Assembly: GCA_016490735.1 (NCBI GenBank) | Contig: JAEMWC010000098.1 | Coordinates: 70,001 to 134,000 of the forward strand | DNA from: Pachyseris speciosa | Lineage: Eukaryota; Cnidaria; Anthozoa; Scleractinia; Pachyseridae | Length of the DNA stretch: 64,000 nt | Direction of reading: 5' to 3' | Notes under the pieces: generated by a model | What the model was told of the DNA's origin: nothing | Seen by the model: the letters and a program-made list of their open reading frames with translations, nothing else | Databases searched by the model: none | Shown: positions 7,197-50,088 of the stretch, in pieces | Position numbering within the stretch: position 1 is the stretch's first letter | How the letters are laid out: every line of letters begins with the position of its first letter | Translations under genes and position numbers: made by a program

Positions 7197-7675
7197 TTAA
7201 AGAGAAGGTTTTAAAAGCACGCGCAAAGTTGAGCGACTCTGAATGTTGTAATGCGTCAAAGTGCGATCATACTTTAAATCACTGTTGTCAAAAGTCAAGC
7301 GTTGTAATTCTGCAACTATTCCAATTTTTTCTTGGATTTTGACCTTCACCATCTTTATAGTATCACTCGGTTCGACGGACAGTGTAATTGTCCTTACGTT
7401 TCGACTAATCATTACTTTTACGAAGATTTTCATACCACGTTTGATCAACTGCAAAATTGATTTCGGATGGATGTTGTAAAAACTCAGACGGCGGCTGTTT
7501 TCCATTCTGCAGCCACCAGTTTTAAGAATCTGTTTCCGGGATGGAATCCCTTCTGTGGCTTCAATTTGGTCTTTCACCATCTTGATGGTGTCGCTCGATT
7601 TTGCTTCCAAAGTGATCTTTTTTCCCGTCGGCATCTGAACATTCAATTTCGTCTTTTCCTGTGGTAGATACACCG
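7197..7675 (-). CDS. terminal exon: two ubiquitin-like domains
   Basis: Last exon of the proposed modular gene. The acceptor (pyrimidine-rich, ending TTTCTTTCAG at 7676) puts the exon start at 7675 in phase 1, and the frame ends at TAA 7197-7199. It encodes about 159 residues forming two beta-grasp ubiquitin-like repeats. The first (KLNVQMPTGKKITLEAKSSD, then TIKMVKDQIEATEGIP) has a degenerate second half. The second starts MKIFVKV and continues with SDTIKMVKVKIQEKIGI. Neither ends in a Gly-Gly tail, so conjugation to substrates is unlikely and a binding role is more plausible. The 50-nt exon at 9722-9771 joins in phase and would complete a GCG codon at the junction. The open frame continues past the acceptor, but the good splice site argues against starting there. 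The domain call is firm; membership in the larger gene is inferred from order and phase. Confidence 0.8.
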
Positions 7676-8195
7676 CTGAAAGAAATGAGCACCCTTAAAC
7701 AAAAATTTTGATATATTCAACATCTAACTGCTGTCGCATCGATTCGTATTCATAGGTTGGTTACCTATCTTTAAAAGGAAAGAGTATAATCTACTAAAAC
7801 TGGTTCATAATATAACTCTTTGTACAATGAGGTTTCGTCAGACTATCTCAAGCTAGATCTACATAGCGTTACTGCTTATAACTTAAGATCTTCTGGTGCT
7901 CCATCATTAATATTCCCAGATCCTAAGCGATTTACATACCTTCCAGGATATCGCTGCTAGAACATTTAATAAGTTACTGGCAAACATAAGAAAAAATGAT
8001 TCATATAATCAATTTATCAAAGCAATAAGGAAAGAGATTTTGGCCAGAGCTAAAGCTAGGCTGGAAAAATATTGTACACAGTTCTTAATCTATGCATTTA
8101 CATACATGTATATATGAGGGGGGGCTTTGAATCCACGACCTTCCACTCAGCAGTCAAACCCACCACCAACTGAGCTACCATAAAAGCTAAGGGAG
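7676..8195. other. intron sequence, weak tRNA-like remnant
   Basis: Part of the intron upstream of the terminal exon. At about 8122-8180 the minus strand reads like a tRNA head (GGTAGCTCAGTTGGTGGTGG, later GGATTCAAAGCC), so it may be a SINE-like remnant. Nothing else was recognised. Confidence 0.4.
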
Positions 8196-8197
8196 AT

Positions 8198-8233
<36 letters not shown>

Positions 8234-8457
8234 GAAGTGAATCACGAAACTTTGCTTTATTGACGGAGTTGATAATGCAAATTGACCCCCGTACAGGGAT
8301 TCCATTAGCTGACGTTTCGAACGTTAGTCCTTCGTCGGATCGAAGGGCTAACGCTCGAAACGTTAGCTAATTGAATCCCTGTACGGTGGTCAATTTACAT
8401 TATCAATTCCGTTGATAAACCAAAAACTAACGCTCGAAACGTCAGCTAATCGAATCC

Positions 8458-8501
<44 letters not shown>

Positions 8502-9721: not shown

Positions 9722-9771
9722 CGAATGCTTCAACAAGTTCACTTTCTTTCTCAGTGGTGTAGAAAGACGAT
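9722..9771 (-). CDS. 50-nt linker exon (predicted)
   Basis: Predicted microexon bounded on the minus strand by TTTTTGAAG (acceptor) and GTGAGT (a strong donor). It encodes SSFYTTEKESELVEAF with a single base at each side. It was sought because the upstream TRADD-N-like exon (11541-11889) ends in phase 2 while the terminal ubiquitin-like exon starts in phase 1. This exon enters in phase 2 and leaves in phase 1, resolving the mismatch exactly and making junction codons AGA and GCG. The acidic, helix-prone residues would extend the last TRADD-N helix. The weak point is the acceptor, which has only a modest pyrimidine tract. An unseen exon elsewhere in the same intron is the alternative. Confidence 0.5.
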
Positions 9772-11540: not shown

Positions 11541-11889
11541 CTTATGCAATCAAATGTTTCCTCAACTTCGTCCCTATTTGTGATGGATGCGTTCAATTCC
11601 TCTTTGAATCCAATGCTTCTAAGCTCCTCTTTCAATCTCTCTTGCGCCTCTTGTTTCTCAAATTCCAACAGAAACGTAAGAAATCTGAGTCTTGAACTGC
11701 ATTCAAGGGTGACGAGAACCGAACCAACTGAAATACTCTGGGGCTGAATCCCGGGTGCTTCCAATGCGCCTCTAGCTGCTCTTCCAACTAGCTCCGGCTG
11801 TTTAGAATGAAGCGTTTCCAAAGCTCCACAAATTTTAAGCGAAAAAGAGAAAGAAAACTGCAGAGCATGCTTAAGTGGTTCGTCAAATT
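11541..11889 (-). CDS. third TRADD-N-like exon
   Basis: Internal exon of the modular gene. A strong acceptor with a long CT-rich tract ending TTCTGACAG gives a start at 11889 in phase 1; the donor is GTAAAT after 11541, phase 2. It encodes about 116 residues. The N-terminal part FSLKICGALETLHS aligns with HLKIDCEAVKG in the first TRADD-N exon. The core SISVGSVLVTLECSSRLRFL, then FEKQEAQERLKEELRSIGF, and NASITNRDEVEETF matches the beta-alpha-beta pattern of the other copies (SLIVTLECRSL, LVTEDILKPLG, VNLVTQIVEEE) but is shorter, lacking the LWEDY segment. TRADD-N domains mediate assembly of death or immune signalling complexes. This copy is the most diverged, so its family call is by relation to the two clearer exons. 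Confidence 0.65.
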
Positions 11890-12878: not shown

Positions 12879-13595
12879 CATCAATGTCCACTTCGCATAA
12901 GGTTGAACCCGTCTGAATAGTGTACTTAGCAAGAGTCGCGTCATCATCGAGTTGTCTGCCATCATAAGCCAAAGTAGGTTTCTTCCCGAGTGGGAGGCCT
13001 TCCACCGTCTCCGCTCTTTTTCTCTTCAACGTCCTAACAGTGTCACTTGGTGGGACGTTCAACACGATCTTCCTTCCGGACAGCGGTTTGATAAATATTT
13101 CCATTGCCATGTGTACGATGGATTTGTGGTAAATACAGTAGTCACGAAGATCATAATGATCATCATCAAGAATGCTCTCACAAAAGACAAGACGTTGTTG
13201 GTCTGATGGAATACCCTCTAAGCGTTCAATCTGTTTCTTCACCGCCTCAATCCGATCAGATGATTTCACTGCAAGGGTGATCATGGCACCGGTCAGCGTT
13301 CTTATGCCGATTTCAATCACAATTTCGCTAGTTGCCGTCAAGGTAAGCACGTATCCATCCCGAATGTTGTAATCACTCAGAGTGTGGTCATCTTCCAGGT
13401 ACTCCTCAAGGTAGAGAAGTTGCTTGTCCGGTGGAATCTTGAACTTCTCTTCAATTTTCGTCTTCAATTTCTTAATAGAATCACTTCTATCAACAGCTAA
13501 AGCAAAATAGTTATCAGACATGCCGCCAGTTCCTATCAAGACTTCAGTGACACCAGCATGACTATCGCCTTCAGTGTGTTCATCAGACAAGGTAC
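12879..13595 (-). CDS. exon with three ubiquitin-like domains
   Basis: Internal exon of 717 nt, phase 1 at both ends: acceptor TTTTCTTTAG before 13595, donor GTACGT after 12879. It encodes 239 residues: a short acidic leader, then three beta-grasp repeats of about 75 residues. Repeat 1 contains SDSIKKLKTKIEEKFKIPPD and DDHTLSDYNIRDG. Repeat 2 contains IGIRTLTGAMITLAVKSSD and EGIPSDQQRLVF. Repeat 3 starts MEIFIKPLSGRKIVLNV and contains DGRQLDDDATLAKYTIQTGS. The layout equals polyubiquitin, but the repeats are highly diverged from one another and none ends in Gly-Gly, so they cannot be processed or conjugated like ubiquitin. The symmetrical phase would let the exon be duplicated or shuffled without breaking the frame. 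The ATG at 13617 lies upstream of the acceptor and is probably intronic. Confidence 0.85.
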
Positions 13596-13671
13596 CTAAA
13601 GAAAACAAATTTGTCATTCATTATAACGTACGTATCTTCTCTCTGTTAAAAAAAAAAGGCATTCTTTCCTT

Positions 13672-13865
13672 CGGAGTTATCAACGGAGTTAAAAACGTAA
13701 ATTGACCAAAGCTGACGTTCATGAAGGGCCAGTAACGCTCGAAACGTCAGCTTTTTTAATCACTTTCCGGTGGTCACTTTACATTATCAACTCCATTGAT
13801 AAACCAAATTTTCGTGTTTCCCTGCCCCACCGATGCAGCTGTACAGTTTCTTTAGAAACTCACCC
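13672..13865. mobile_element. foldback repeat, AACGCTCGAAACGT family (copy 2)
   Basis: It shares AACGCTCGAAACGTCAGCTT, TTTACATTATCAACTCCATT and TTTCTTTAGAAACT with the element at 8196-8503, shorter and partly in opposite orientation. Confidence 0.6.
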
Positions 13866-14037
13866 CTTTATTTATTAAGGTTATATCCATTAGGCAATAA
13901 AAAGCAGAACAGCAGCGCTACTTGTTACCATGTTAAGCTGTCGTTTTTCCCTCATCTCATGCTTTTTGTATTTTCTGCGTGAACGCATCAAGCAATTCAT
14001 CTGCACATAGCAGTAAACTTGTGGAACTGATTTACTA

Positions 14038-14180
14038 TTATATATATATACATACATACATACATACATACATACATACATACATACATACATACATACA
14101 TACATACATACATACATACATACGTATTTACATACGTACGTACGTACCTACGTACATACATACATACATATATATATAGT
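14038..14180. repeat. (CATA)n microsatellite with CGTA variants
   Basis: About 33 tetramer units, with AT-rich edges and a block of CGTA variants near 14125-14150. The overlapping open frames in all registers are artefacts. Confidence 0.95.
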
Positions 14181-14221
14181 AGAGGAAAAATTGAACTCTT
14201 CATCTGCTATGAAAGTGCTCA

Positions 14222-14540
14222 ATGGATAAACCAGAGCTTTTGTGCGACTCTCAATTCAAGGAACGTTATACAAACCATACATGCTCTTTCAGGAATAAAC
14301 GTTACAAGAATGCAACTGAATTAAGTAAATTTATATGGAGCCTGAAGGATAGAAAAGTTAATTATGAAGTCAAATGGCGTATTCTAAAACAAGCAAGATC
14401 GTATTAAAACATTAACAAAAAATGTAATTTGTGTCTGTGGGAGAAGTACTTCATTATTTGTAAACCGGAAATGGCTACCCTTAACAACAGAAATGAACTG
14501 ACATCAATCTGTAGACATTCGAAAAATTTTCTATTGAATA
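14222..14540 (+). pseudogene. Penelope-like element fragment, C-terminal endonuclease region
   Basis: The frame reads [19 protein letters not shown], then [20 protein letters not shown] and [12 protein letters not shown], a stop at 14405-14407, then in the same frame [34 protein letters not shown]. This order (F..R..NH..SF, ELSK.IW.LK, CNLCL.EK..I, CRH..KF) is typical of the region following the GIY-YIG core in Penelope-like retroelements of invertebrates. The reverse transcriptase part is absent, so it is a 5'-truncated dead copy sitting beside the CATA repeat. Confidence 0.6.
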
Positions 14541-14574
14541 CTGTATTTGCTTAAACCAATTGTATCTTGACACG

Positions 14575-14660
14575 TCACGATAGACGGAATGTTTACAAGA
14601 TATCTTGCAAATGCGGTAAAGTTTATATTGGTGAAACGGTTTGTACATGACCGGATAAGG
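14575..14660 (+). pseudogene. GIY-YIG endonuclease fragment of a Penelope-like element
   Basis: The plus strand reads NVYKISCKCGKVYIGETV, matching the start of a GIY-YIG nuclease module, followed by a stop and degraded sequence to about 14735. It lies downstream of the fragment at 14222-14540, which is normally the later part, so two different copies or a rearrangement are joined here. Confidence 0.5.
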
Positions 14661-14759
14661 AAACTGACAGAACTCTCCTTTTTCTGGCATTAAGCAATGG
14701 AGCAGCAACGCATATATGTCGAAAACGGCGAGCAATTTTTTTTAGATTTTGCGACACTG

Positions 14760-17300
14760 ACCTAAATGAAATAAATCATTATTTCGTTTTAACTGTATAT
14801 ACTCAAACAATTTTGTTCAAAATACCGGGTTTCGTTTCTAAACGAACGGACCTCTAGTCTTGTTTTGAATAACTGAGTGTTTTGCCTCCGTTCATTTGTG
14901 ACGTTTGCATCCTTTGAAAAAAAAAAAAGTTAAGTATCATGTGAACGTATTTAGACCTCGATCCGAACTTTTGCCAATTATCATACGTGCTTTTGAGCCA
15001 ACAAATTGAAATTATCATACGTGCTTTTAAGCCAACAAATTGAACATTTCCTGATTCGGGATCGGCGTGGTAATAAATTACTTCTCCCACAACTGTTAGG
15101 AAATCATTTAATCTAGTGGACATAGTTAAAAGTCTTCTGCTTTGCTAGTGGTCTCGATCGTTTAGCATCCTTGCGAGGAAATTGATGGATTCTGAACAGG
15201 AAAATCCGGGGCAGATATCCGACTCATATTTCTTAATTCTAAAACACTTTTACTTCTTAAGTTGCAGCAAACATGGATGTAAAGAAAATGGAAATAACAT
15301 CTGACCATATCTCTTTAACAGCAACCACACTTGGCACAAAAACTGAAAACTCAAAGGAAACCTAGCGAGAGGCTCTGAAGCAAAACAATTGAAACGATAT
15401 AGGTTCTGTCAGATGAGGCCGAATAAGTCACATTCACGAATTGTTCTCTTGAGTCATTCAGTGTCTTTTCGGCTCACAATCAAGGATTTTGTCAGTTCAA
15501 TTCAAAGAGAGATTTTTCAGTAAATCACAATTTAAGAACCGCAAAAATTCGAGTCACGGGGTCACGAAAGAAAATCACATTTGGCCATGCATACTATTCA
15601 CACACCGAAATAAATTGTAAAGTACAGAATTTAGTTTTGTTTGCTATTTTTGCATTCGCTTAATTTATTGGCTTAAAATTACTGTAATATAATGACGGTT
15701 AAAGAAAATAACTTAAATTTAGCCAAATAGCAAGGGTAGATTCGACATGATTGAACGTTCGGTTTAAATTTTTACAACCTCATTTAAAATCTCTTCTTCC
15801 TTGAAAGCAATTGTCGTGACAACTGTCCTGGCAGAGGGCACACTGTCTTACAAAAACTTCCGCAAAGTATGATAGTGCCTCATCTTCAGTTGAACTGTCA
15901 CACTTAGCCCTTTGTTGGCAGCGCTTCTCATAAATTAATTTGGCTTATCTTTTCGTATGGTATGAAACCACTTCTGAATCGACAAAGAGCAATTACAATA
16001 TTTCTTTTAATATGTATTCACCTTGGTCTTATACTAATGTAACACCTCTTTTTCAATTCTTCAGTAGATCTGCTGATCACCGTGATTTGAAATCAAACAG
16101 AATAACGTTTTCGCTCTGAGTGAGTGGAGTTCAGTGTGAGAACATAATGTTGAAGCATGAAGTTGACCAACGTAAAAAAAGAGAAATATACGTACGGTTT
16201 AATAGCAGTCGAATAACTGCCAACTTAAGTAGAATTTAAACCAGCTACGAACTTATCGTTACTGTCTTGGACCAATAACCGAGGAAACTGCAAAAGGCTA
16301 CTTTTGCATGTGCAAAGGTTGAAATAAGATGATGGTATGACGGTGATGAACCAATTGTCCCTATTGTTTCTATAAAGAGGCAATTTAGAGCAACTAGCCA
16401 TCAGTTATCATCGGCAAATCGTAGAGAAATTGCAATTTTCTTCAGCTTTCTTGGAGTTTTCAGCTGTTGCCTTTCTGTTACACTTGCTCTCGCCTAAAAT
16501 CAGTTTCCAACGGGAACGGTTTGAAAGTACAAGTTTTCATGGCAGGAAAGGGAAATATAGTGGAGGGAAAATCCACCCATCTCTGGCTAGCAGAAGGTAC
16601 TGTTAATCGAAAATTTTAGGCTTTCTATCAGCTGCAGATCTACCTTCGCTCATTTTTTATTTCAAAGATTTGATTAAGATTCAGAAAACAATAGGTTTTC
16701 TTCAGTAGCTTCAGTAAAAGAACAAGCTTGAACAGAATTCCCACAGTGGTAGAATGGTTTCCTCATCGTGTAAAGCGAATAACTTACTGAGATTTAATTT
16801 ACGGGCGTAACCTGGGTATGCTGCTTAATGCTTTCTTTTTACCAATTGTGACATTATTTTCTTTTGCCAGTCACAGTTAGTATGTTTGCGTGACAGCTGA
16901 GTCACGCTGACATTTTTTAGATGAAATGCCACATTTATCGGCGTAAATCCTAACGCCAGCGGGCCAATTCATTTACCCAAAGGTTTGCTTGGCTAATTTG
17001 ATAAACAGGTGTTTAATTAAGCCAAGGAATCGTATTCCACATTTTTTTTGGATGCAGAAAATTATTTTTCATCTGGCTAATATTATTCCGTGCGATGCCT
17101 GTGGCACCACAGTGAAAATCCGATAGATTTGTAGGTGCAAATTACAAAGCGGACCAATAGGATTACATGAAACTTTTCTCGATTCTTCTATCGATTTGTC
17201 TTCGATTTATTGATTTGTGATTACTTCGACCAATGGAAGTGTCTCACGTTTCACATACACGTGATGCCATTGCGCCACCAAGGCATGTTCCCGTATCCTG
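14760..17300. other. long stretch with nothing recognised
   Basis: AT-rich intronic sequence. A short tandem duplication (AATTATCATACGTGCTTTT, twice) occurs at about 14977-15030. No coding exon with plausible splice sites, no tRNA and no clear transposon ends were seen on either strand. Confidence 0.4.
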
Positions 17301-17317
17301 TCTCAAATCTGCATTTA

Positions 17318-17366
17318 TAGCGGAGCTCCGGCGGCCCGAAGGGCCGCCAAGCGGAGCCCCATACCT

Positions 17367-17398
<32 letters not shown>

Positions 17399-17448
17399 AA
17401 AATGGCTAGCGGTATTGCTCGTGGGCGCGCACGACGACGACGGTGGAG

Positions 17449-17480
<32 letters not shown>

Positions 17481-19553
17481 CCATAATAATCCAACATGGC
17501 GGCCATACTCCACCTGACCCAGCTGGGTCCCCAGCTCATCAGCTAGTTTGCAGCGTGCAACTTTGATATAGGACATCCGTGTCATGGCCAATTGACAGCT
17601 GTCAAAACAAGGTTTCCGCTGACCAGTATCACGTGTCCATATCGCGGGCTCAAGTTTAGAACTCATATAGGTCAGCTTTTTTTTTTGAAGTTGACCGCTG
17701 ACCACGTACTAGTTTTCGATTAGATCGCAGGCTCGAGCCAGGTTAATTTAACCAAAACGAGGCACCCAAACCAAAACGAGGCTTAATTTTCCGCGCGCTT
17801 TCTGCGGCTTGTAATTTCACATTCAGTTGGTTTCTTCATTTTGACCAAAACAACTTCATCTTCTTCGAAGTTTGCGAAGTTTGTCTTTTAATTCGCGTAA
17901 AAGGCATAAAAATCAATAACTAATCAACAGATACTCCGGAAGGTGAATTTTCAAGTCATAAAAAGGATAGCAAAACATTTGCCTCAGGAAACGCTTAAAA
18001 CTTGGCTCGACTTGCATAATCGACGCCCGGATTGTGTGGTTGAAAAACAAAATGATCCAAGGCTTCAAGGACTTTCACTTTACCGCGGCACCTCGCAGCT
18101 CACCAAGAAAGGTCACTTAACAGTTCACCGGCATTAATGGGAGGAACGAGTAGCTCAAAGTTGGTGGAAGAAGTTCTTTCTTTGGACAAACCGTTTGCTA
18201 TTTTTCCAGATGCGTGTTTTAACTCAAGTGGATTCGTATTTTCAACCTCTACAACACAGGTGACTGAATTAAATGAATTGAAGCTTAACATTAAATGGTT
18301 TAATCGTTCTTATTATTGTTCAGGAAAGCAATTTGTATTTTTCTCTCGACTGGATATAAATAGCAATCATCTCTACTCGTTTTGCAAGCAAAGAAGTAGT
18401 TGAATTGTTTGTTTGTTTTGTTGTTTTCATGCAAGCGAACGAGTGTTTTCACTCCGCTTGGCTGACTGTTTTCAGTGTTTTTCGACGTCGGTGCCTCAAC
18501 AGCATTAAAAAAACTCTTGCCCCTAACTTATCAACAAGTAATTGCAATGAGTCCTCGTAAAATTAAGCATTAAGCCCAGGCTAAACGATCAAACACTTCA
18601 TTCAACATCGTGTTGGAAGATAATTTAAAACGGCTTTCTATGTTTGATCCATATGAAACATTTTCATCCAACATTTCGCTCTACGAACAAATGTTTGATC
18701 GTTTAGCCAACCCAACTAAGAAAGTGCACAGTCAGTAAAAAGCAAACCAAATGAAGAACGTGAAAATTTCAGCGATAACACGCAAAAAGTGTCCTGTGTA
18801 CTCGCTTTGTCTTGTGTTTGGTCAAACATTGTCTGTTTTCCTGCTAGCAGAGGTTTCTCGCCCAAGGAAATTTGTTTATGGGCTAGTCACCCAAAGTTAT
18901 GTTTGTCAAACACTATGTTCAGGAAAATGTTTGATCGTTTAGCGGGGGCTTTAGTATTACTTGTGTTTTGCGCAAAGAACACAATTTCAGCAACTTCTGA
19001 AAACACAAATAATATCAATTCTTAATTTTTCTCGGCCCAGTGCGATTACCAATCCAACCATCGGTTTGTTTTCCTTTTTCTCTTTCCTCCGATATTTAAG
19101 CTTATGTCAAAATTGCTTAACAATTTTTATTAACTTGCTACGAAATTGTCACTTGTCTATTTTCCCTACCTTCTCCAAAGAAACCTACAAACCTACGCAT
19201 CGTCAGTGAATTTGTTTTCTTGTAATGTTTTGTTATTCTGTGGTTTGTGAATCGTTGACTGCTCTAAACGATCAGGTTCATACTCTACGGACCGTTATGT
19301 AAAAACTTAAGATTGCTTAGTAATTTTTCTAGCTTACTAGAAGCTTACTTGTCAACTTTCTTCACCCATTCCAAGAGTCTTCGAACAAACATAGGCGTCC
19401 AGTTGTTTTGGAATGTTTTAATGTTTTGACGTTTTTGAACCGCGGTCGATTCCTGTTGACTGCTCTAAACACAAAATATTGGCGCAAGGAAGCCATGCGA
19501 AGTTGCTCAATACCAGTAAATAAAATAATAACCATGGAGCTCCGCTTTTAGGC
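17318..19553. mobile_element. possible DNA element with AGCGGAGCTCC inverted ends
   Basis: The left end carries ATAGCGGAGCTCCGGCGGCC and the right end GGAGCTCCGCTTTTAG, i.e. inverted AGCGGAGCTCC over about 12 bp. A GC-rich hairpin (GGCGGCCCGAAGGGCCGCC) follows the left end. Two short plus-strand open frames (17943-18137 and 18137-18403) abut inside, the first reading KHLPQETLKTWLDLHNRRPD; neither is recognised. The element assignment rests on the short ends only. Confidence 0.3.
18577..18950. mobile_element. MITE with GGCTAAACGATCAAACA ends
   Basis: The left end is CAGGCTAAACGATCAAACAC; internal and right copies read AATGTTTGATCGTTTAGCC and AATGTTTGATCGTTTAGCGG. Three copies of the end motif indicate a nested or duplicated foldback. 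Confidence 0.55.
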
Positions 19554-20373
19554 TTGGCTAAATCTATATATTATCCTTCGCGCGATTTCCAAGGAAGCGG
19601 CAACCTTATCAGAGTTCAGACGTGGCACCAAGAAGTAAAACTCTGCTTTGTTAAAACTGTAAATCGAAAGAAGAGGTTGTAAGAAAGACTCGACAGTGGA
19701 AATCATTTTGTTCCTAATGAAGAAATCCCTGCCTTCGCATACCACTCAGTGCAAATCATCACAACGGCTGTAGACTTTCTGTTTGATCGCTTCTGGAAAT
19801 CCACCTTAAAACCTTACAGGTTCGAATGTTAATTTGTACTGTGCTTTTATATCCTTAATCGTCGTTTTAATATTTCCAATCAACTTAACAGCGAAGCTTG
19901 CCAGTATAAAAACTTGGTCGGCTCGAGGGAATTCGTTTGCATTTCTTTCACGTAGCGTTATCGAACGCCTTAGTTTGCTTTTCCACCGAAAATGGAGTCT
20001 TATCAGAATAATATTTTGTTTGGGATCAAGAGATGAGCCAACTTATTCATGCTTTAGTGAGGAAATGCGGGTGTGGGCAGTAAAGCTGGGTTGATAATAA
20101 ACTTCACGGCCGTTTTGCTGTGCTTGCTTTTTACAACATTTAAGTGACAATACAATTGTAAAAATTACAGCGCAATATTTAGTTTTTCCACACAAGTGAA
20201 TAGTGCTTTTCGCGCGCTCTGATTGGTTAACTCGGAGGTGATTAGCAAGTGCTATTCACCTCCGAGCAGCCGGCGCGCGATATTTTATAATTTCCGACCG
20301 CTTTTCGGTATATTGTCACACATAAATTAATGTTTTGGTCCGCTAATTGTTCAACTTGTGTGGTGTATACTAA

Positions 20374-21087
20374 TGGCTGGTTCACACGTGCGACGCAAAT
20401 GCAAATGCAAGTGCAAGCGCAAATGCAAACGACGTTCACACGTCGAACGCAAACGCAAGGAAGGTGAGATACGCAAGCGCAGTCGAAGTCTTTCTCAAGA
20501 TGGCGGACGGGATGGAAGTTTTGACACTACTACTTTTCCTGCTTTTCGCTTACCGACTGATTAAGAAACGAAAAAGACGTGTCCAGACGTTTTTATCGTG
20601 TACAAAGTATATCGTTAGAATATAGTGGATTAGTTCCTACTATGTGAAGGTGCCACCTTGATATTAAAACTAGCAGGGGAAATAAACCACGCTGGGTAAA
20701 AGGGGGTTGTCCCTTATGTGTTTTAATATTTCATTTTATGGGTTTGTTGCTTTAAACGGAATTAAAAAAAAAAAAAAACAGTGAGAAATCCCCAACCGAA
20801 CCCGCACCCGTGGAAGACGCCATCTTGGGTTCAACTTCAACCGTGGAGGCATGGAACAAGTGTTTTGTTACCTTGCGTTTGCATTTGCGTTTGCGTTTGC
20901 GTTGCCCCGGTTCACACGTGTGAAATACAAACGCAAGCGCAAATGCAAGCGCAAGAAAATGAAAATTTTTCCATTTCTTGCGTCGGCGCTTGCGCTTGCA
21001 TTTGCGTTACGGTAGTTCACACGTGTATTTCCTTGCATTTGCATTTGCATTTGCACTTGCATTTGCGTCGCTCGTGTGAACCAGGCT
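20374..21087. mobile_element. Harbinger-like non-autonomous element
   Basis: The ends are TGGCTGGTTCACACG (left) and CGTGTGAACCAGGCT (right), each flanked by TAA (20371-20373 and 21088-21090), a 3-bp duplication typical of PIF/Harbinger insertions. Subterminal regions are iterations of GCAAATGCAAGTGCAAGCGC in inverted arrangement, and the middle holds a small ORF (20500-20625) and an A-run. The superfamily is inferred from the duplication and the ORF character. Confidence 0.65.
20500..20625 (+). pseudogene. 41-codon ORF inside the Harbinger-like element
   Basis: ATG follows a GAAGTCTTTCTCAAG leader. The product starts MADGMEVLTLLLFLLFAYR and continues with LIKKRKRRVQTF, ending at a TAG. A leucine-rich start followed by a basic patch resembles the beginnings of some Harbinger transposases, so this may be the stub left after internal deletion. 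No catalytic residues are present. Confidence 0.35.
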
Positions 21088-21358
21088 TAAATAGTGGTGG
21101 ATATTTACCTCGCCGCTTCGCGGCTCGGTAAATATCCACCACTATTTACCTCCACTTCGGTGAATAATTGTTATACAGTATTAGGCAGTGTAATCCATCT
21201 AAAACAACTGAAAATCTAAGCAATATTTAAACTTTATGTCAAAGGTTACAACCCTCGCTTTTCGTGCAGATCAACAGTATTTATAAGCTGGTTTTCAAGT
21301 TAAATTACATGTAAATTAGCTCCGATACGCACCAGACTCCGTGACGCCACCTCATTAA

Positions 21359-22155
21359 GAGCGTGTCCGTGTATTAATAAGAACCGACCACTCAAATTTT
21401 GGCGAAAAATGGATTGCCCTCATTTTTTCTACACAAGTCAAGCAACATATGCAATGAACGAAAATGGCCTTTATTTTGCCAGATTCGCTTCCTTTATTTT
21501 TTGACGAATTTTTTTTATAGGCGAGTCGAAAACCACACAAAACCGGAAATTTGAAACACCTAATTTTGGTCGTTACGCAATGCATGCTAAAAACTCGCAC
21601 ATTTAACAAAACAACCTAATTTTTTTCAGAATCGCTAGATAATTCTTTCTTCTTTCCACAGAATTAAAAATACGCGTTTATCTTAAACACAAGGAAAGTT
21701 ATGATTTTTTTCCCGAACCCTCTTAAAAACGTCTTTAGCATTTTTGCCAACATAGCCTCCAAACAAACAGATTTTTTCAAAAGTGGGACCTCTACATGAA
21801 TGACGACTGTTATCAGCTTAATGTACTAAGGCTAAGCTACAAATATCTGTATGAAAAGTTGTGGGCACTCGTAAGTTTGAAGCGCAAAAAATTCGAGCAA
21901 GTAGCTGAAAATTCAACGTTTTGTGTAGAAATGACGAATCTCGTGACTTAACTGAAGTAAGTTTTAATTTTTGTCAGCGAATAGTTTGATGTTACCTGAT
22001 TAGATTTATTGAGTTTCAACGTTTGGAGAACTCAGTGAGACTTATTCTACACCAAAAAAACGAGAAATCGTCGGAACCTTGCCTTGCTTTTGATTTCTAG
22101 CACTGATTATTCGTCACCTTTGCGGTAACGCATCACGCATTTTTGGTTGACTCAA
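21359..22155. repeat. left long terminal inverted repeat of the TTAA element
   Basis: It mirrors 28055-28770. Matching landmarks include AACCGACCACTCAAATTTTG, TGACTTGTGTAGAAAAAATG read inversely, and CTTGCTTTTGATTTCTAGCA near the inner end. The 83-84-codon open frames in each arm are the same sequence in opposite orientation and are not considered genes. Confidence 0.85.
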
Positions 22156-33601: not shown

Positions 33602-33635
<34 letters not shown>

Positions 33636-35574: not shown

Positions 35575-35827
35575 TGAAATCGTAAAGCTTGTGGGATGTG
35601 GCTGGAGTGACAAGGATACTTCACAAATTAATGTGATCAAGTAAGCTGAAGCCACTCAAAAGGCACTAAGGCCACATGGTAGCGGGCATTACCCCTTAAA
35701 TCTACCAAAGCAAGATTGAGCCCTAGCATTAGCAGCCATGGACAGCTGTTTCGGCCTTGTTAGGCCTCATCAGCATGGCATAGCTAATACTCAGGCTCAA
35801 GTACCCACATATCAATAAAACAAGCAA
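35575..35827 (-). repeat. 254-bp ribozyme-bearing terminal repeat unit (second unit)
   Basis: The unit boundary TGAAATCGTAAAGCTTGTGG recurs at 35321, 35575 and 35828, giving periods of 254 and 253 bp. The units are nearly identical, differing by a few bases (for example TTATCAAATTAA versus TTCACAAATTAA). Confidence 0.9.
35716..35800 (-). ncRNA. type I hammerhead ribozyme (copy 2)
   Basis: Same design as copy 1, 253 bp further on. The only change seen is in the stem I outer part (GCTAGGG for GCTTGGG read on the minus strand), which keeps the helices. All core bases are intact. Confidence 0.9.
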
Positions 35828-35991
35828 TGAAATCGTAAAGCTTGTGGGATGTGGCTGGAGTGACAAGGATACTTCACAAATTAATGTGATCAAGTAAGCT
35901 GAAGCCACTCAAAAGGCAAGTATCCTTGTCACTCCAGCCACATCCCACAAGCTTTACGATTTCATTGCTTGTTTTATTGATATGTGGGTAC

Positions 35992-36051
35992 TTGAGCCTG
36001 AGTATTAGCTATGTCATGCTGATGAGGCCTAACAAGGCCGAAACAGCTGTC
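35992..36051 (+). ncRNA. hammerhead ribozyme cut off exactly at the cleavage site (copy 3)
   Basis: On the plus strand it runs TTGAGCCTGAG, ATTAGC, GTCATG, CTGATGA, stem II, GAAAC and ACAGCTGTC, and ends there. The following bases (GACGTCTTATAATTGGC) are unrelated to the other copies, so the 3' strand of stem I is missing. The break coincides with the predicted GTC cleavage position, as if the unit ends at a self-cleaved RNA terminus. GTCATG in place of GCCATG also weakens stem I. Confidence 0.8.
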
Positions 36052-36089
36052 GACGTCTTATAATTGGCTTTTTTTTTTGTTATTTTTGG

Positions 36090-37322
36090 ATGCAAGTCCT
36101 AAGTACCCGCCGGGGGGGAACGGCAATGCATCCATCCCAAAACGTTTTGCAGTGTCCAAGTAGTGCCCTAGTTCTCTTCCCTGAGGAGATCTACAAATCT
36201 GTTGGTTCGTCTGTGGTGCTACCACAATTGTTGGAAGCTGTGCCTGTAGAAAAGCTATGTGCTGTCCAGTTCCTGCGCAATGGTGCTGTTCGTCTGACCT
36301 TCAAACAGACCGCTGACTGTGATGATCTTGTTCTCCGTGGTGTCATGTACGGTGACACACCCTTACGTGTTGTCAGTGCTGATAAAAAGTCCCGCCTCGT
36401 GTATCTTCGGGATTGCCCGTCTGAGGTTTCTGACGATGTTGTGTCTCACTTCTTCTCCACGTACGGGGAGGTGCTTTCTGTTCAAAGATCCAAGCATGCC
36501 GCCTTCCCCGTTCTTCTTGATGGGAACCGCGTGGTGAGAATGTCCTTGTCTCGAGACATCCCGTCCACTGTTAACGTCGCTGGCTTCGACTGCCGCGTGT
36601 GGTACGCTCGCCAGCCTCCGCAGTGCTCGATTTGTAGGAAGTCTGGCCATCGAAACCGTGATTGCCCGCTTTCTGGTCTGTGTAGACGCTGTCGCCAACC
36701 TGGTCATCTTGCCAAGGAGTGTAAGCAGGCTTGGGGTTCAACCCGTTCCGCTGATTCTTCTCTGGAGGTTTCCCTAGATGAACGTACGGAAGTTCTTGTT
36801 TCTGGTTCTGTCGATCTTATAGATGGAAGCCCGGATTTTGTTCCCTCTGCCGATGAGGCTTCTTTCGATGAATGTGAAATGGCTTCGGGGGATGAGGAAG
36901 TTGTTGCCCAGGCTGAACCCTCTCCTCCTCCACGTCGTCCAAGTATTACAGCTTCTTCGTGTTCTTCTGTTGGTGTTTCTCCTTCTGTTGATGTTCCTGA
37001 TGCTGGCGTTACTTCTGATGTTGCTCCTGGTGATATTCCTGATCCTTCCATTGCTGATTTTTCCGCTACTGCTGTTGTGACTTCTGAGTCTGTGGTCGCC
37101 GAGCCTCCGGTTGTTCCTGTCCCTAAGCCATCGCCGTCTATTTTCGTCCGTCTGAAAGCTGCTGCTGCTAAGGATATTCTCCTCCGCAAAACGCTTGAGC
37201 GTTATGGACACGTTATTACGGAGAAGCTTTTAATGCGTATTCCTCAGGATGTCCCTTTTGCTTCCGGTCAATATTTGGTTCATTTGACTACTCTTGCTGA
37301 TGAGAGAGACTTGCTTATTTAG
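36090..37322 (+). CDS. CCHC zinc-knuckle Gag/ORF1-like protein
   Basis: Intact 410-codon ORF in the retroelement body. An ATG at 36126 (MHPSQNVLQCPSS) is an alternative start. Residues about 15-190 look like RRM-type nucleic-acid-binding folds (for example VYLRDCPSEVSDDVVSHFFS and FDCRVWYARQPP). Two zinc knuckles follow: CSICRKSGHRNRDC and CRRCRQPGHLAKEC. The C-terminal half is a Ser/Pro/Val-rich acidic linker ending in a basic-hydrophobic tail (IFVRLKAAAAKDILLRKTLE). This plan matches ORF1/Gag-like RNA-binding proteins of retroelements. No reverse transcriptase or endonuclease ORF follows. Its full-length state inside an otherwise decayed host element suggests recent arrival. Confidence 0.75.
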   Translation: MQVLSTRRGGTAMHPSQNVLQCPSSALVLFPEEIYKSVGSSVVLPQLLEAVPVEKLCAVQFLRNGAVRLTFKQTADCDDLVLRGVMYGDTPLRVVSADKKSRLVYLRDCPSEVSDDVVSHFFSTYGEVLSVQRSKHAAFPVLLDGNRVVRMSLSRDIPSTVNVAGFDCRVWYARQPPQCSICRKSGHRNRDCPLSGLCRRCRQPGHLAKECKQAWGSTRSADSSLEVSLDERTEVLVSGSVDLIDGSPDFVPSADEASFDECEMASGDEEVVAQAEPSPPPRRPSITASSCSSVGVSPSVDVPDAGVTSDVAPGDIPDPSIADFSATAVVTSESVVAEPPVVPVPKPSPSIFVRLKAAAAKDILLRKTLERYGHVITEKLLMRIPQDVPFASGQYLVHLTTLADERDLLI

Positions 37323-37495
37323 GGCGTATTGAGAAGAACGTTAAAGCTAATTCTACTAAGAGATGAACCTTGCTGTTTTTTCTTTGATATGGGTTGACTG
37401 ATTGATGTATTTTTGAATTTTGCGTGCGGCTTTGTTTTCTTGTCTTTGTTTGTCTTTTAATGTGTTTTTATCTGTGAATAAATTTTCTTATACAA

Positions 37496-37535
37496 CCGAA
37501 ACAACTGTCCATGGCTGCTAATGCTTGGGCTCAAT
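37496..37535 (+). ncRNA. 3' portion of a hammerhead ribozyme (copy 4, partial)
   Basis: The sequence starts within the ribozyme at CCGAAACAACTGTC, then CATGGCTGCTAATGCTTGGG with the full 3' strand of stem I. The core CTGATGA and 5' stem are absent because the ORF-bearing body joins here. It is complementary in extent to copy 3, which keeps the 5' portion. Confidence 0.75.
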
Positions 37536-37641
37536 CTTTGCTTTGGTAGATTTAAGGGGTAATGCCCGCTACCATGTAGCCTTAGTGCCTTTTGAGTGGC
37601 TTCAGCTTACTTGATCACATTAATTTGTTAAGTATCCCCCT

Positions 37642-39172
37642 CCAGCTTAAGGATGAGATTGGGCAGCAACTGCAAACAGTACAATTTTTGGGTGTAATGG
37701 CGGACAGTACTACAGATGTGGGTGTTCAAGAGGTTGAGGATGTCTATGTGCGATATTTGAAAGATGGAGAACCAGTGAACACATTTTTAGGGCTTTGGCC
37801 CTGCCCTAACGCTAAAGCCCCAGGTATCACTGAAGCTGTTAACAGTGCTATGAGCGATGTGTGTGACAACTGGAAAGAAAAAGCGGTCGCCCTTGGCACT
37901 GACGGAGCAGCTGTAATGGTTGGAGAAGCTGGCGGAGTTTTTGCTTTGCTGAAACAAGATATCCCTCACCTGATCAAGGTGCACTGCATAGCTCACAGAT
38001 TAGAGCTGGCCTTTGCAGATACCGTTAAGGCTATTCCAGAGCTAGAAGACGCCAAGAGTATGCTCCAAGGGATATGGAAGCATTACCATTATTCCCCTAA
38101 GGCCGTTCGTGAATTGAAAGAGTTAGCAGAAAGTATGCAGGTCAGGGCGTACTAAGCAGCGAAGGCAGATGGCACCAGATGGGTACCCCATTTGAAGCGA
38201 GCTCTAGATGTTCTTGTTTTGAAGAATTATTACACGGTAGTTAGCCATTTGCAGCACACCTCGCAAGCGAGGGATGCAAGAATTACAATGCAAGGCAGAG
38301 CGTCCAATTACAGCAGAAAGTTGGTCAGTTACAAGTTCCTGTTATTCCTACACCTGCTCCTTGACATAGTCACTGCAATTAGCAAGCTCTCTCTTCAATT
38401 CCAGGAGGACAAGATGTCCATCTCTCAACTGCAAGACAAAGTCAACGCTCTCTCATCAACGCTTGATGCATTGAAGGTCAGGGCAGGACAACATTTGAAT
38501 TCATTTCAACAAGAAGCCGTGGATGATGGAAATCTTTACAAAGGCCTTGAGCTAGCCAGGTCCGAGCGTGATGCAGCGTCCTTTGCCACCAGCAAAGATG
38601 AAATCATTAATAAAGCCACAGCATTTACCACCGACAGACTCCAAGGTCTTGGTGATGATCCAATCTTGCGTGCAGCATCAACTTTGACAGACCACAAGTC
38701 ATGGCCTTTAAACAACAGACAGCAACTTCTTGTTTATGGTGAAGATGTTATTCAGGTGTTCGCTCAACATTTTGAGATGCTACTGAACCAACACCACTTC
38801 AACTTACAGTCTTGCCTTGATGATTGGATGGAGATCAAGATGCGTTTGCAGAGGGAGAGGACAGAGCTGCAGTACAGTACCACTGACTTCTGGAAGGGCA
38901 AGTTTCAGGTGCGGGAACGTTTCCCCAATTTGCTGCTGGTGATCGAGATTGGTCTTGTTATCCCTGTGCAAACAGCCTGTTGTGAGAGAGGCAATTCCTG
39001 TCTCAACAGGATCATGTGTGACTTCCGGTCAACACTTGGTGTCTCTACTGTGAAAGCACTCATGCGCATTTCTATTAATGGTGTTTCTCCAGAGCATTAT
39101 CACTCAACTTTAGCTGTTGCCAGGTGGCTTGACTCAGGAGAAAGAGCAAGGCGACCATATTACAATGATTAA
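37642..39172 (+). pseudogene. hAT transposase, catalytic and dimerisation part
   Basis: Continues the N-terminal piece from QLKDEIGQQLQTVQFLGVMA with the hAT first-Asp motif VMADSTTDVGVQE. It continues with ALGTDGAAVMVGEAGGVFAL (second Asp region) and KVHCIAHRLELAFAD. An in-frame TAA at 38153-38155 interrupts the reading (RAY then AAKADGTRWVPHL). The rest is open to 39172 and includes the C-terminal hAT dimerisation block (NLLLVIEIGLVIPVQTACCE, RGNSCLNRIMCDFRSTL). One nonsense codon plus the 2.3-kb insertion make the gene inactive. Similarity is to ZNF862-type proteins. Confidence 0.85.
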
Positions 39173-40043
39173 CTTACATGTCAGTGCTGAACTCTTGATA
39201 AATACGCGATGTTGCTATCCTCTGTCTAGTGAGTTATTCTAGTTTAAACCCTTGACATTCAAATCACATTTTGCATCCCTAACAGTTTGTATTTAAATTG
39301 CTGTGTTTATGGACTCTTGAATATCCCAAGTGCGAATTTCGGATTAGAGGGTTTAAAAACATGTTCTAACGTCCAATTTCAAAGTTAGTTTGGTTCAATA
39401 GCCATGTTAAGTGATAGATATGTTGTTAAGATGAAAAAAAGTGTGATTAATATTAGTGAATGAAGTGTGTTATAAAACTTCCAAATGTAAAGCATACTAA
39501 CTTGTTTCTAAAAACCTGATAAATTGAGGCTATTGCGCATCTGTATCAAGCTACTGAAATTGATTGACAGGATGAAAATAAAAAAAACTAAGAAGTTGGG
39601 TTCACAAGTCTGGGATTTGTTTCCTTTATCGGTATCAAACAAGCATTGTTGCAGTAACAAATGTTTGCCCCCCCCCCCCAAAAAAATAAAAATAAAAATA
39701 AAAATAAAATTCTGTCCTACTTCGCAAAAAAAAAGTCTGGCTTCTGAAAAAATTGTTTTGGCTAGTGAATCAAACCTGGCACTAGCCACTGGGCTAGTAA
39801 GCTGAAAAGTTAGTTTCGAACCCTGGAGTATTAAGCTTATATGCTTAACTACACATACAGTACGTCTGGGCTGCCTGTGTATGCAGAGGGCAATCGACGA
39901 AAACCTTTGTTATATTTCGCAAACAACCAAGCACACAGAGGAAAATAAAAACAAAACAAAACAGGAATGCTTACGTGTTACAGTGTTCAAGTTTGATTCA
40001 GAAAGGTATTAAGTCTTATTTACTGTGAAAAGGATCAACTTAC

Positions 40044-40535
40044 GATTGTACGAACGAATCCTAAAATAATCCCGACATTTTCTGTGCTCCTCTTCCACTA
40101 TCTGTGTCACAAGGTTCACGTTGACGAGGCCAAGCGGCTTCAGAATGTCCTCTGTCACAAGGAACTTTTGCGCTATTTCATTTAAACGGCCTGTGAAGTA
40201 GTCTTCCCAGAGTTGATCGACGAGAAGCAGAGATCTGCATTCCAAGGTGACAATTAAGCTGCCTTCCTCAGCAACGGTGAACAACACTTTTCCCACCCCT
40301 GTCAAATATTTCAGGAAGGCATTCCTCTCCTCTTGATTAGCTGGGTCAGCTGTCTGAAAGTACTTGTGCTCTATGGATTGCAAAACTTGTGTTCCAGATA
40401 GCATGCATCCACTTCCTCCTTTTTGTCCCGTCAAAGCCGTCATGTCTACCCCTTGTTGCTGATTCAAGGTGTTGGGTGCTCCCTGTATGCAATGTCCTGT
40501 GATAGTCTCACAATTCAATCGCACTCGAATGAGAT
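40044..40535 (-). CDS. second TRADD-N-like exon
   Basis: Internal exon of 492 nt, phase 1 at both ends: acceptor is a long T-run ending TTTGACAG before 40535, donor GTAAGT after 40044. It encodes 164 residues. The opening DLIRVRLNCETITG matches the start of the first TRADD-N exon. A linker with Gln/Asn runs follows, then the domain: VLQSIEHKYFQTADPANQEE, FLKYLTGVGKVLFTVAEEGS, LIVTLECRSLLLVDQLWEDY, LNEIAQKFLVTEDILKPLG and VNVNLVTQIVEEEHRKCRDY. The beta strand LIVTLEC, helix LWEDY..GRLNE and terminal E-rich helix are the hallmarks that suggest the TRADD N-terminal fold, which in TRADD binds TRAF2 and in related proteins acts as an assembly module. Family assignment is by pattern, not by a profile search. 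Confidence 0.75.
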
Positions 40536-46741: not shown

Positions 46742-46798
46742 ACCCCTAACCCTAACCCTAATCCAAGGGTTGGGTTAGGTCAGGTCAGGTTAGGGTTG
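46742..46798. repeat. interstitial telomere-type repeats in inverted arrangement
   Basis: CCCCTAACCCTAACCCTAAT is followed by GGGTTGGGTTAGGTCAGGTC and AGGTTAGGGTTG, i.e. CCCTAA units meeting TTAGGG-like units head to head. The canonical metazoan telomere unit appears about three times on the left and in degraded form on the right. Confidence 0.8.
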
Positions 46799-46799
46799 C

Positions 46800-47671
46800 C
46801 TGATTTTGGAGTACCTATGCAAGTTACAACCCGATTTAAACTATTCTGCGTGACAGGCGCTGGAATAACATGGTACTTGGTTCAGAGGGACGCGTTCGAA
46901 AAGAGAAACAAGCAAAGAGAAAAGGAGAAACGCCTTTCCTCTCTTGACTCGTGCGTCTCTTTTCTCGTGCGCGCCGTCCAGTCTCGTGTCCCAGATTTTC
47001 CAGCGCTTCGGTAGGCACGGTAGAATCAAACTGATCAGTGGGGAATTTAAAGAGGGAAATTTCTTCAAGAAAAACAAGGCCTACTTTCAATTAATTTCAG
47101 CATAACACTGAGAGAAATTCTATGCAACAATTAGATTATGTCGTAGATATTTCTGTAGCAAATTGATAATTGAAGAAAGTTCAGCCCGAATGAACTATAA
47201 TTCAGAGAAACTGAGGGTCGATAATGAACTGATTTCGATCGTTAATAGTTCAAAGATATCGTCACGATCATCACTATCATGACCAAAATCATTATCATGG
47301 TCTTCATCATCGTCACAATCACCGTCAACGTGATTATCCTATTTTACCATCACAATTATGTGCGCGACTTTGAGAAAGGCTGGAAAAAATTGACTCGGTA
47401 GGGATTGGTAACTGGTAGGACTGCTACACCAGTGCATTGCTCTACCAACTAAGCTACCACGTAACTGGCTTTGGGTACTTGATATTTTGAGTGTTCTAAA
47501 AATAATTACAAACCCATGAAACAGGAAAAAAACAAATTTCATGCATTTGAAGTACATGCGGAGGATACATTTGAAGATGTCAAAGAACATCAAAGTTACG
47601 TATGCAACGTTACTTAAAGAAGCAATCATCTTCGTCATTGTTATCATTATATCAATTCCAATCAAACTCAC
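46800..47671. other. intron sequence with tRNA-like segment
   Basis: A (CAT/CA)-rich purine-pyrimidine tract lies at about 47255-47350. At about 47395-47470 the minus strand reads GGTAGCTTAGTTGGTAGAGC followed by sequence without a convincing B box, a probable SINE-head relic. Nothing else is recognised. Confidence 0.4.
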
Positions 47672-48199
47672 CTCGACGTGTAAGGAAATTCAGACAAGCG
47701 AAGTACTCGCGAAAAGCAATGGTTGTCGCCAGTCTCACCTCGGTCAGGCCAAATTCCTGCAGAACGTCGTCTGTCACCAGGAATTTCTGAACCACTTCAT
47801 TGAGATGACCACTGTCATAGTCTTCCAACAGTTCTTCAAGGATTTTAACAGACCTGATTTCTACTGTGATCATCAAACTGCTGACTGTAGTGTCAATAAT
47901 TATTACTTTGCGCACCTTTTCCATATACTGTAGGAAGTCATCTAACTGCTCAGGTTTTGATGGGTCAACTTGTTGGATGCGCTTGTATGCAATTACGTTT
48001 ATAACTGCTTGGGTGGAAGGAATGCCTCCGTTACCGGCATTTGACGGCGAACGCACATCTTCCGGTTGGTTTGACTTGTTTGGTGAGACCGCCGCGCTTT
48101 CTACTTTCCGCTTTCCGCGCTTTTCTCCTATTTCTGTAGCTATGTCCTGTGCACCAGGTCCTTTCACAGCCTCACAATCAATTTTCAGGTGAAGAAAAG
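47672..48199 (-). CDS. first TRADD-N-like exon
   Basis: Internal exon of 528 nt, phase 1 at both ends. The acceptor TTTTTGACAAG before 48199 is a little weak; the donor GTGAGT after 47672 is strong. It encodes 176 residues: a start FLHLKIDCEAVKGPGAQDIA, a basic Lys/Arg-Ser/Pro linker (EKRGKRKVESAAVSPNKS), then the domain with STQAVINVIAYKRIQQVDPS, FLQYMEKVRKVIIIDTT, SLMITVEIRSVKILEELLED, HLNEVVQKFLVTDDVLQEFG and EVRLATTIAFREYFACLNF. The closest relative in the window is 40044-40535 and, in broken form, 1845-2180. It follows the glycosyltransferase exon in phase across a 0.7-kb intron. A role as a homotypic docking domain is inferred from the TRADD-N family. Confidence 0.75.
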
Positions 48200-48890
48200 C
48201 TTGTCAAAAAGAAATTCTGAATTAGACAAACAACAAGGCATCATGGCATGTGAACCAGAGATCACCCAAAATTCATTCTTTTAAATATGCAATGAATGAT
48301 TATTCTATCGAAGGCCTCTTTAACAATAAAAGCAAACAGCAACGTACCCAGTTCCTCCTTGAACGGGCAACTTATCATTTAACAAAGTTCATACTTAGTG
48401 TTTCCGATGTCGTTTAGCATATCTGATGTTTTTGCGCCTCATCCACCGGATCATTGCATTTCCCCTTCCCATGTCTATGATAATCATGTTTCAAAACAAT
48501 TTCATCTGCATATAGGTTAAGTTGAACCATAAAACTGCTACAAGATACTAAAAGGGCCCACGGAACTAATGGCTACAACGAAACGTTGGAGCGAGACGAG
48601 TGTATTGTGCCATGTGACTTCGTGACAATTGCGACATAGCAGGGACATCTATAGACTGATAGCATTCCCGTTTCTCAATAATCAGGAGGGAAGGCCATCA
48701 ACATAGCGGCGAGAAGGGAGTTCACTCCACGTTTCGAATTTTTCGCGCGTCTATTTGACCATTCATAAAGAGACTACTAGAAGTATATTGAGGACTAGAG
48801 ACAAGTGACAAGAGACGGTGAACTTCAAAAAACACTACATGTGCACTTAAATTGTGCACTAAAAATGTATGCAAACCAATTCCAACTTAC

Positions 48891-50088
48891 CACGAACAAG
48901 GTTCATCATCTTAAACCGAAGGGCATCGCTTTGTTTGGTCCAACTGTATTCATTGTCATAGGATGTTCGCAAACTCTCAGCCTCCCTCAGTCGAGTCTTC
49001 CTGTCTTTCTCCCAGATTTTCTTGATGGCTGCAGCCCATATCTCGGGATCTTCTGAGTCGATCACAAAAGACGAACCAAATGGTACTTTGTTTAACGCTT
49101 CTCCAAACCCAGAATTCTTGCTAGCCAGCACAGGTAGACCAGCTGAAAGAGCCTCAAGACCAGTCAACCCGAAGCCCTCTGTTCTGGAGGTTAAGAGCAC
49201 AAGATCTACTTCGCATAATAATCGCTTCAAACTTTCTCGGCTCTTTTCATAGCGTCTGACCTTCAAGCGGTTAGCAGGTATATCATAGTCAAGAAAACGT
49301 TTCGCTACTTCCTCGTGATTTCCATCAGATGCTCCGACGATCACAAGCTGGGTGTCAGGTAGTGACGCAACGGCCCTTCCCGCTATATCGAACCCTTGTA
49401 ATTCAAAATCCTCTGCATCTCCACGGCCAAACACCAAAACACTCCGATGTTTTCTTTCTGTGGGAACCTGTTCAACACTCTTGAATTCGTCAAACACTCC
49501 GGGAGTAAAGTCAAAAATGGACTCATCTCGTCTATACCCACGAAGGTACGAACGAAAGGCCTCAGTTAACTTCGGCCCAACTCCAACAACAAAATCGGCT
49601 AGTTTGCACAACTCTACTTCAACACTGTGCTTTTCTTCGCCCGTCGAAATTGGATTTGGATAACATTTGAACATCCCTTCTTCCTCTGGGTTTGAGTGTA
49701 CAACTTGCACCCACTTGCATTTGTGAGAGTCTCTGATGATTTGCGCCTGGCGACCGAGTTTCACCCCATGACCAACAATTATGTCTACTTGCAATTGTTC
49801 TGGTGGAAAGCTAAGCCATTCCAGTTCTTCATAACCAGGCCGTCGTTTGGCTTCCAGAACGTGCACATTGTGGGTAAAAGCTGTTTCCTTCTCCACTTCA
49901 CTACATTTTGGCACAAAGAATGTAATTTCCACACTGGAGGACTTGGCCAACTGAATGGCTAATTCTCTGTTTACTGTGGAAAGTTCTCCCTTGTTTGAGC
50001 CCCATTCAGAAGCCAAAATGGTGATTTTAACTTTGCGACGTCCATAAGCCTGGCCATGTTCTTGCGATTCCCATGAAGCGGACGCCAT
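48891..50088 (-). CDS. GT4-family glycosyltransferase exon (5' coding exon)
   Basis: Codes 399 residues from ATG 50088 to a GTAAGT donor after 48891 (phase 1). The start is chosen because an in-frame TAG lies seven codons upstream and the exon's acceptor (TTGCAG, exon from 50133) leaves a 45-nt 5' leader. It has the GT-B fold pattern of glycosyltransferase family 4: an N-terminal Rossmann start KVKITILASEWGSNKGELST, a mid-protein HSNPEEEG, a linker SVLVFGRGDAEDFELQGFDI, and the nucleotide-sugar site RTEGFGLTGLEALSAGLPVL with the E-x7-E pair at residues 304 and 312. The donor sugar is unknown. Fusion of GT4 domains to nucleotide-binding or signalling modules is reported in coral NLR-type proteins, and here the next exons encode TRADD-N-like and ubiquitin-like modules. 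The reading beyond the donor ends at a stop (48859) and is probably intronic. Confidence 0.85.

Follow-up and report, generated by a model that had tools for sequence, protein, structure and literature searches.

In this study we describe a predicted gene of the coral Pachyseris speciosa that joins a GT4 glycosyltransferase domain, TRADD-N-like modules and ubiquitin-like (Ubl) repeats, and whose Ubl repeats differ between array copies on particular surfaces. The gene lies within a 64,000-nucleotide (nt) stretch, referred to here as the window, which covers positions 70,001 to 134,000 of contig JAEMWC010000098.1 (C98:70001-134000). Its modules run in the order GT4, TRADD-N (T1), TRADD-N (T2), Ubl1-3 (exon U3), a tentative diverged TRADD-N (T3) with a 50-nt linker, and Ubl4-5 (exon U2). 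Across 18 distinct copies of U3, the variation in the aligned sequences is concentrated in two places, the Ile44 patch in Ubl1 and the Asp58 patch in Ubl2, and this is the new observation made here. We lean, with moderate confidence, towards reading these features as one gene, a copy within a tandem array, that encodes an immune adaptor or sensor with diversified Ubl faces.

Exon structure and tandem array

Exon borders and phases were re-derived for the window. All seven exons of the minus-strand order proposed by an earlier sequence-only reading are present, open and bounded by intact AG/GT borders with matching phases. Exon 1 (48891..50088) begins with ATG, encodes the GT4 domain and ends in phase 1. 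Exons 2 (T1; 47672..48199), 3 (T2; 40044..40535) and 4 (U3; 12879..13595) are each of phase 1-1, so that they can be gained or lost with the frame kept. Exon 5 (T3; 11541..11889, phase 1-2) is followed by exon 6, the linker RSSFYTTEKESELVEAF (9722..9771, phase 2-1), and by exon 7 (U2; 7197..7675), which enters in phase 1 and ends with a stop codon. When codon usage was tried as a test of coding potential, it did not discriminate even for GT4, and neither counts of poly(A) hexamers nor a scan of the window for bacterial promoters and terminators was informative.

The same arrangement recurs elsewhere in the genome. Ten stretches adjoining U2 copies were fetched, three units (u971, u1016 and u1061) were then completed and a fourth, u806, was read in part. 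All three completed units hold GT4-T1-T2-U3-T3-linker-U2 on one strand over 23-28 kb, with one or more U2-type exons each, and in u1016 the first six modules are all open. On C98 there are at least 14 GT4 exons (40 of 76 candidates scored) and 14 U3 sites (two partial pieces counted as one, one masked copy included), all on the minus strand. Exactly one U3 precedes the next GT4 for 12 of the 14 GT4 exons, the alternation being broken at one place, and 2 of 200,000 shuffles equalled it. The alternation identifies a repeated unit in the sequence; one mRNA does not follow from it alone.

The units also appear to exchange material. When window positions 47590-50600 are compared with u971 (C98:994340-997310), GT4 and its 5' flank are approximately 98% identical, and in the intron next to them and T1 identity falls abruptly to 61-85%, which marks a sharp mosaic border. 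T1, only 700 bases from GT4, has 56.6% protein identity to its u971 counterpart, and the pairing of these two values suggests conversion or recombination among array units.

Variability of the ubiquitin-like repeats

U3 has 26 matches in the genome, of which 20, counting the window copy, read open through to the donor, while three carry stops, two lack the donor motif and one is masked. Setting aside these last three classes and two identical duplicates left 18 distinct open copies for analysis, 17 of them more than 3% apart in protein. Near C98:612 kb, the U3 copy (L054 and L011) sits in a stretch reading N.

Ubl1 and Ubl2 are hypervariable among paralogues. Pooled over five copies, the ratio of non-synonymous to synonymous differences (pN/pS) is 1.37 for Ubl1, 1.80 for Ubl2 and 0.64 for Ubl3, and away from gaps it is 1.20, 1.81 and 0.59, respectively. 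In the pooled values given below for GT4, T1, T2, Ubl4 and the four-copy set of T3, u1061 was excluded from GT4, u971 from T2 and Ubl4, and u806 from all but U3 and Ubl4. Nine disjoint U3 pairs, picked by distance alone, give a substitution rate ratio (omega) over all columns of 1.54 (p 1.5e-4) for Ubl1 and Ubl2 together and 0.82 for Ubl3. A codon model for Ubl1 and Ubl2 has a log likelihood (lnL) over all columns of -1360.14 vs -1363.07 at omega 1. The pairing of the window with u806 yields a Fisher p of 0.004 for these two repeats, the most extreme of 10 U3 pairs, and we place no weight on this p.

The Ile44 patch of ubiquitin consists of Leu8, Ile44, His68 and Val70, and the Asp58 patch of Arg54, Thr55, Ser57 and Asp58, as defined in a review (PMC5135002). 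The window Ubl1 has a deletion near residues 42-49, and ubiquitin numbering was mapped on a copy without it. Leu8 is unmappable owing to length variation, leaving three mapped Ile44-patch positions in Ubl1; in Ubl3 one position of this patch was mapped. In Ubl1, positions Ile44/His68/Val70 have a mean entropy of 2.41 bits vs 0.81 over all mapped sites, a value reached by 13 of 20,000 random sets, and the Asp58 patch has an entropy of 0.56. In Ubl2 it is the Asp58 patch (54/55/57/58) that varies, at 2.10 vs 0.55 overall (0 of 20,000 random sets), with the Ile44 patch at 0.48. Along Ubl1 strand 42-50, positions 42, 44, 46, 47 and 49 are variable and positions 43, 45 and 50 much less so. On broader faces, the Ile44 face has an omega of 2.29 (p 0.01) in Ubl1 and 0.14 (p 0.011) in Ubl3, and the Asp58 face of Ubl1 is kept (omega 0.34, p 4e-4). 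The entropy contrast of the Ubl1 Ile44 face also holds in gap-free columns (R42, T66, H68 and V70; p 5e-4).

Identity of the modules

The repeats belong to the ubiquitin fold by sequence. PF00240 matches U3 in three stretches (149 bits) and also U2 (110 bits), and U2 matches polyubiquitin in the PDB. None of the five window repeats has Ile44, Lys48, Lys63 or a terminal GG; the two lysines and the GG are marks of polyubiquitin. These absences, together with the copy-specific Ile44 patch of Ubl1, weaken the earlier idea of ubiquitin-binding partners of the ordinary kind being recruited by the repeats. Pooled pN/pS for Ubl4 is 0.39 (4 copies). At L018, L014, L015, L016 and L019, two to four U2-type exons lie approximately 1 kb apart, the second repeat often with stops.

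The GT4 exon matches PF20706 (GT4-conflict) with 278.4 bits (cut-off 26, E 1e-82). Aligned with 127 coral GT4 segments, the window copy keeps an acidic E-x7-E pair, which we take to be a GT4 hallmark (E304 and E312; E in 118/127 and 125/127 segments). It carries G35E and K231Q, at positions where the consensus G and K occur in 116/127 and 121/127 segments, and P300T, where P occurs in 124/127; with the first two substitutions, the GG donor loop and the Lys after the Rossmann Arg are both altered. Donor contact at G35 and K231 is presumed from other GT4 enzymes, the Lys being placed by its K-G motif and not by structure. A PDB search with alignment A2 was topped by ubiquitin matches to non-GT4 columns and did not place this lysine. 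Since the pooled pN/pS of 0.41 (3 copies) indicates constraint and G35 and K231 are substituted, we infer that in this subfamily the fold is retained and the binding of the donor altered.

Of the TRADD-N modules, T2 scores 24.3 bits against PF20694 (Pfam TRADD-like_N), above the cut-off of 23.7, and T1 scores 22.9 bits, just under it. T1 also matches a local TRADD-N profile, itself seeded with T1 and T2, at E 9e-36. The predicted structure of T2 has TRADD as its nearest fold, as expected for a TRADD-N module. The small residue-Ser motif that PMC8195603 describes for TRADD-N, located between its second and third strands, reads SS in T1, GS in T2 and GS in T3. The scores of T1 and T2 both lie near the Pfam cut-off; of the three TRADD-N labels proposed from the sequence alone, it is the third that is not confirmed.

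This third module, T3, is without a Pfam match and weak in profile comparisons (E 0.17 against the local TRADD-N profile; hhalign probability 10.6%, with 0 of 200 shuffles as good). Its structure model is too poor for a structure search (predicted local distance difference test score 59.6). As T3 found no match among 120 listed coral homologues or in its own protein search, its conservation is demonstrated within this genome only, and we regard it as a conserved exon that tentatively encodes a diverged TRADD-N. The linker by itself is weak evidence, given that its intron holds 126 open AG..GT stretches (20-200 nt) of phase 2-in/1-out, three of them exactly 50 nt long. That T3 and the linker are artefacts, the latter picked to rescue the frame, is ruled out by their conservation in paralogous stretches. 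Both are present in 6 of the 10 fetched stretches; T3 is open in five of these six copies, and the linker retains its 50 nt, AG and GTGAGT in all six. Linker pN/pS is 0.26 (7 copies) vs 2.36 and 1.55 when read in the alternative frames, and T3 pN/pS is 0.52 (six intact copies including the window, L010 excluded) vs 0.99 and 0.92, or 0.48 in a separate pooling of 4 copies. The linker varies less than most of the surrounding intron, yet 32 of 521 overlapping 50-nt segments there vary as little. T3 and the linker total 399 nt, so that skipping both would preserve the frame.

Single-chain homologues

All three module kinds are held by two proteins among 137 listed of 273 matches. By local profiles, P0004 (Montipora foliosa) is GT4-TRADD-N-Ubl9 and P0038, an unnamed JGI (Joint Genome Institute) protein, is GT4-TRADD-N-Ubl4-TRADD-N-Ubl4. 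The GT4-T1 join predicted in the window aligns with that of P0004 (NLVR, A, then LxLxIDCEA), whose database entry, named polyubiquitin-C-like isoform X1, is really a multi-domain GT4-TRADD-N protein. TRADD-N with Ubl repeats is also found in P0122, P0125 and P0128. The modular gene of the sequence-only reading is well supported by its modules and their order, and collinear paralogues and single-chain homologues make it probably one gene.

The named entries among the 120 listed homologues come from Montipora, Acropora, Porites, Oculina, Pocillopora and Orbicella, in keeping with a stony-coral host, and many of the 120 are LRR- or NACHT-labelled. In a tblastn search (E up to 1e-3) they matched the window only at GT4, T1, T2, U3, U2 and a decayed TRADD-N copy, and leucine-rich repeats (LRRs) after TRADD-N were not found in the window by this search. 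One further Montipora foliosa protein, P0012, has GT4 and Ubl repeats with a related spacer and, by eye, is without the TRADD-N segment of P0004; it looks like the loss of one phase-1 cassette. One relative occurs in viral contigs (L001).

Alternative explanations

Several results weigh against a single array gene with diversified Ubl faces. Away from gaps, omega for Ubl1 and Ubl2 is 1.28 (p 0.08) and the lnL is -1098.02 vs -1098.94 at omega 1, so that a value above 1 is not firm there. In its gap-free columns the Ubl1 Ile44 face has an omega of 1.65 (p 0.44); for the Asp58 face of Ubl2 the value is 1.79 (p 0.14). The residue lists for these faces, which we assume to describe them, extend beyond the four residues of each published patch. 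The Ile44 test preceded the large alignment (p 0.029, five copies), whereas the Asp58 test was chosen after seeing it, and positions 54/55/57/58 are mildly raised in Ubl3 as well (0.65 vs 0.31; 1,024 of 20,000 sets). Constraint is weakly shown for T1 and T2, whose pooled pN/pS values of 0.76 (four copies) and 0.85 (three copies), respectively, are near 1. Furthermore, the reading frame shifts within T2 of u971 and within GT4 of u1061, T1 of u1061 contains a stop, and the aligned U2 copy carries stops in 7 of the 10 fetched stretches. Finally, collinear duplication would carry two neighbouring genes together as well.

The strongest competing explanation, which we consider rather unlikely, is that the patches vary through lost constraint on binding faces and not through selection for diversity. 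The modest omega away from gaps fits it, buried Ubl positions stay conserved (0.26 changes per site) as constraint on the fold alone would give, and GT4 too has substitutions at conserved positions. However, 20 of the 26 U3 copies remain open, and the repeats differ in what they keep: Ubl1 varies at its Ile44 face and retains its Asp58 face, Ubl2 shows the reverse in entropy, and Ubl3 retains its Ile44 face. Different faces in adjacent repeats are not expected from relaxed constraint alone.

It is improbable that the window copy is a decaying array member with no working protein. Just 2 of the 127 homologous segments lose more of eight checked GT4 positions than the window copy, transposon pieces lie in the T2-U3 intron, and a decayed TRADD-N copy lies downstream; but the seven window exons are all open, and G35E and P300T recur in u971, u1016 and u1061 (where position 231 is Q, N and K) and are therefore not private decay. 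Least probable of all is the co-duplication of two neighbouring genes, GT4-TRADD-N and polyubiquitin-like, without a shared mRNA: a 26.4-kb intron (13596..40043) separates T2 from U3 and the U3 frame runs upstream to an ATG, but this gap is 6.8, 5.8 and 3.9 kb in u971, u1016 and u1061, the T2-U3 phases match, the U3 acceptor is pyrimidine-rich, and the three module kinds share a single chain in both P0004 and P0038, the latter uninterrupted across 1378 amino acids (longest contig 5784 nt).

Other features of the window

The T2-U3 intron contains hAT-like transposase pieces at 34731-39172 (+ strand) and, between them, a zinc-knuckle open reading frame at 36033-37322 on the same strand. Within 24178-26078 (- strand) are two long open frames of 476 and 266 amino acids without a Pfam match at E 0.01; that these are perhaps transposon-derived is a guess. 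The decayed TRADD-N copy, 3' of the stop at 1818..2343 (- strand), shows homology across three frames and is perhaps a remnant of another unit.

Proposed function

With the seven exons joined in one mRNA, as we infer, the protein would be a cytoplasmic immune adaptor or sensor. Its TRADD-N modules, whose human counterpart binds TRAF2, may nucleate assembly, and Ubl1, by its Ile44 face, and Ubl2, by its Asp58 face, would offer paralogue-specific surfaces for protein binding, the remaining repeats being more constant. GT4 would be a conserved domain in the effector position, its donor site altered in this subfamily. Few proteins are as conserved as ubiquitin, since so many partners dock on its binding faces. 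Ubiquitin faces that differ from copy to copy beside death-adaptor domains would, if true, mean that nature puts this fold to an unusual use in recognition, and studies of coral immunity or self-recognition would gain a defined surface to test. More tentatively, corals may possess a germ-line repertoire of intracellular recognition proteins in which the ubiquitin fold is the binding scaffold, diversified at the Ubl1 Ile44 and Ubl2 Asp58 patches, with the rest kept more constant, and coupled to GT4 and to assembly through TRADD-N.

Comparison with known systems

In sections of Kaur et al. (2021, PMC8195603), GT4 and TRADD-N are assigned to counter-invader systems, expansions are reported in cnidarians, and GT4-TRADD-N and TRADD-N-polyubiquitin fusions are described. 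This supports an immune setting, and not the function of the window gene itself. Beyond these two pairwise fusions, the open-licence literature consulted, including those sections, names no GT4-TRADD-N-ubiquitin fusion and no hypervariable Ubl domains. The sequence-only reading knew of no protein with this order; the exact order indeed appears new to that literature, but the pairwise fusions and the shared module kinds of P0004 and P0038 make the gene a variant of an already known kind of fusion.

According to the same sections, cnidarian, hemichordate and cephalochordate GT4-TRADD-N-LRR proteins resemble the window gene in having GT4 before a DEDD2-clade-type TRADD-N, in lineage-specific expansion and in varied C-terminal parts. 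The window gene differs in carrying Ubl repeats in place of LRRs, and two TRADD-N modules with a third, diverged one. The TRADD-N-polyubiquitin proteins described there share the pairing of TRADD-N with Ubl repeats, whereas the window gene has an N-terminal GT4, repeats without GG, Lys48 or Lys63, and paralogue-specific faces. P0004 has the same three modules and the same GT4-TRADD-N join, but one TRADD-N and nine repeats. The closest in order is P0038, in which GT4, TRADD-N and a Ubl block are followed by a second TRADD-N and a second Ubl block; unlike the window gene, it has one TRADD-N before the first block, and it is 32% identical over 92% of the GT4-to-Ubl3 query.

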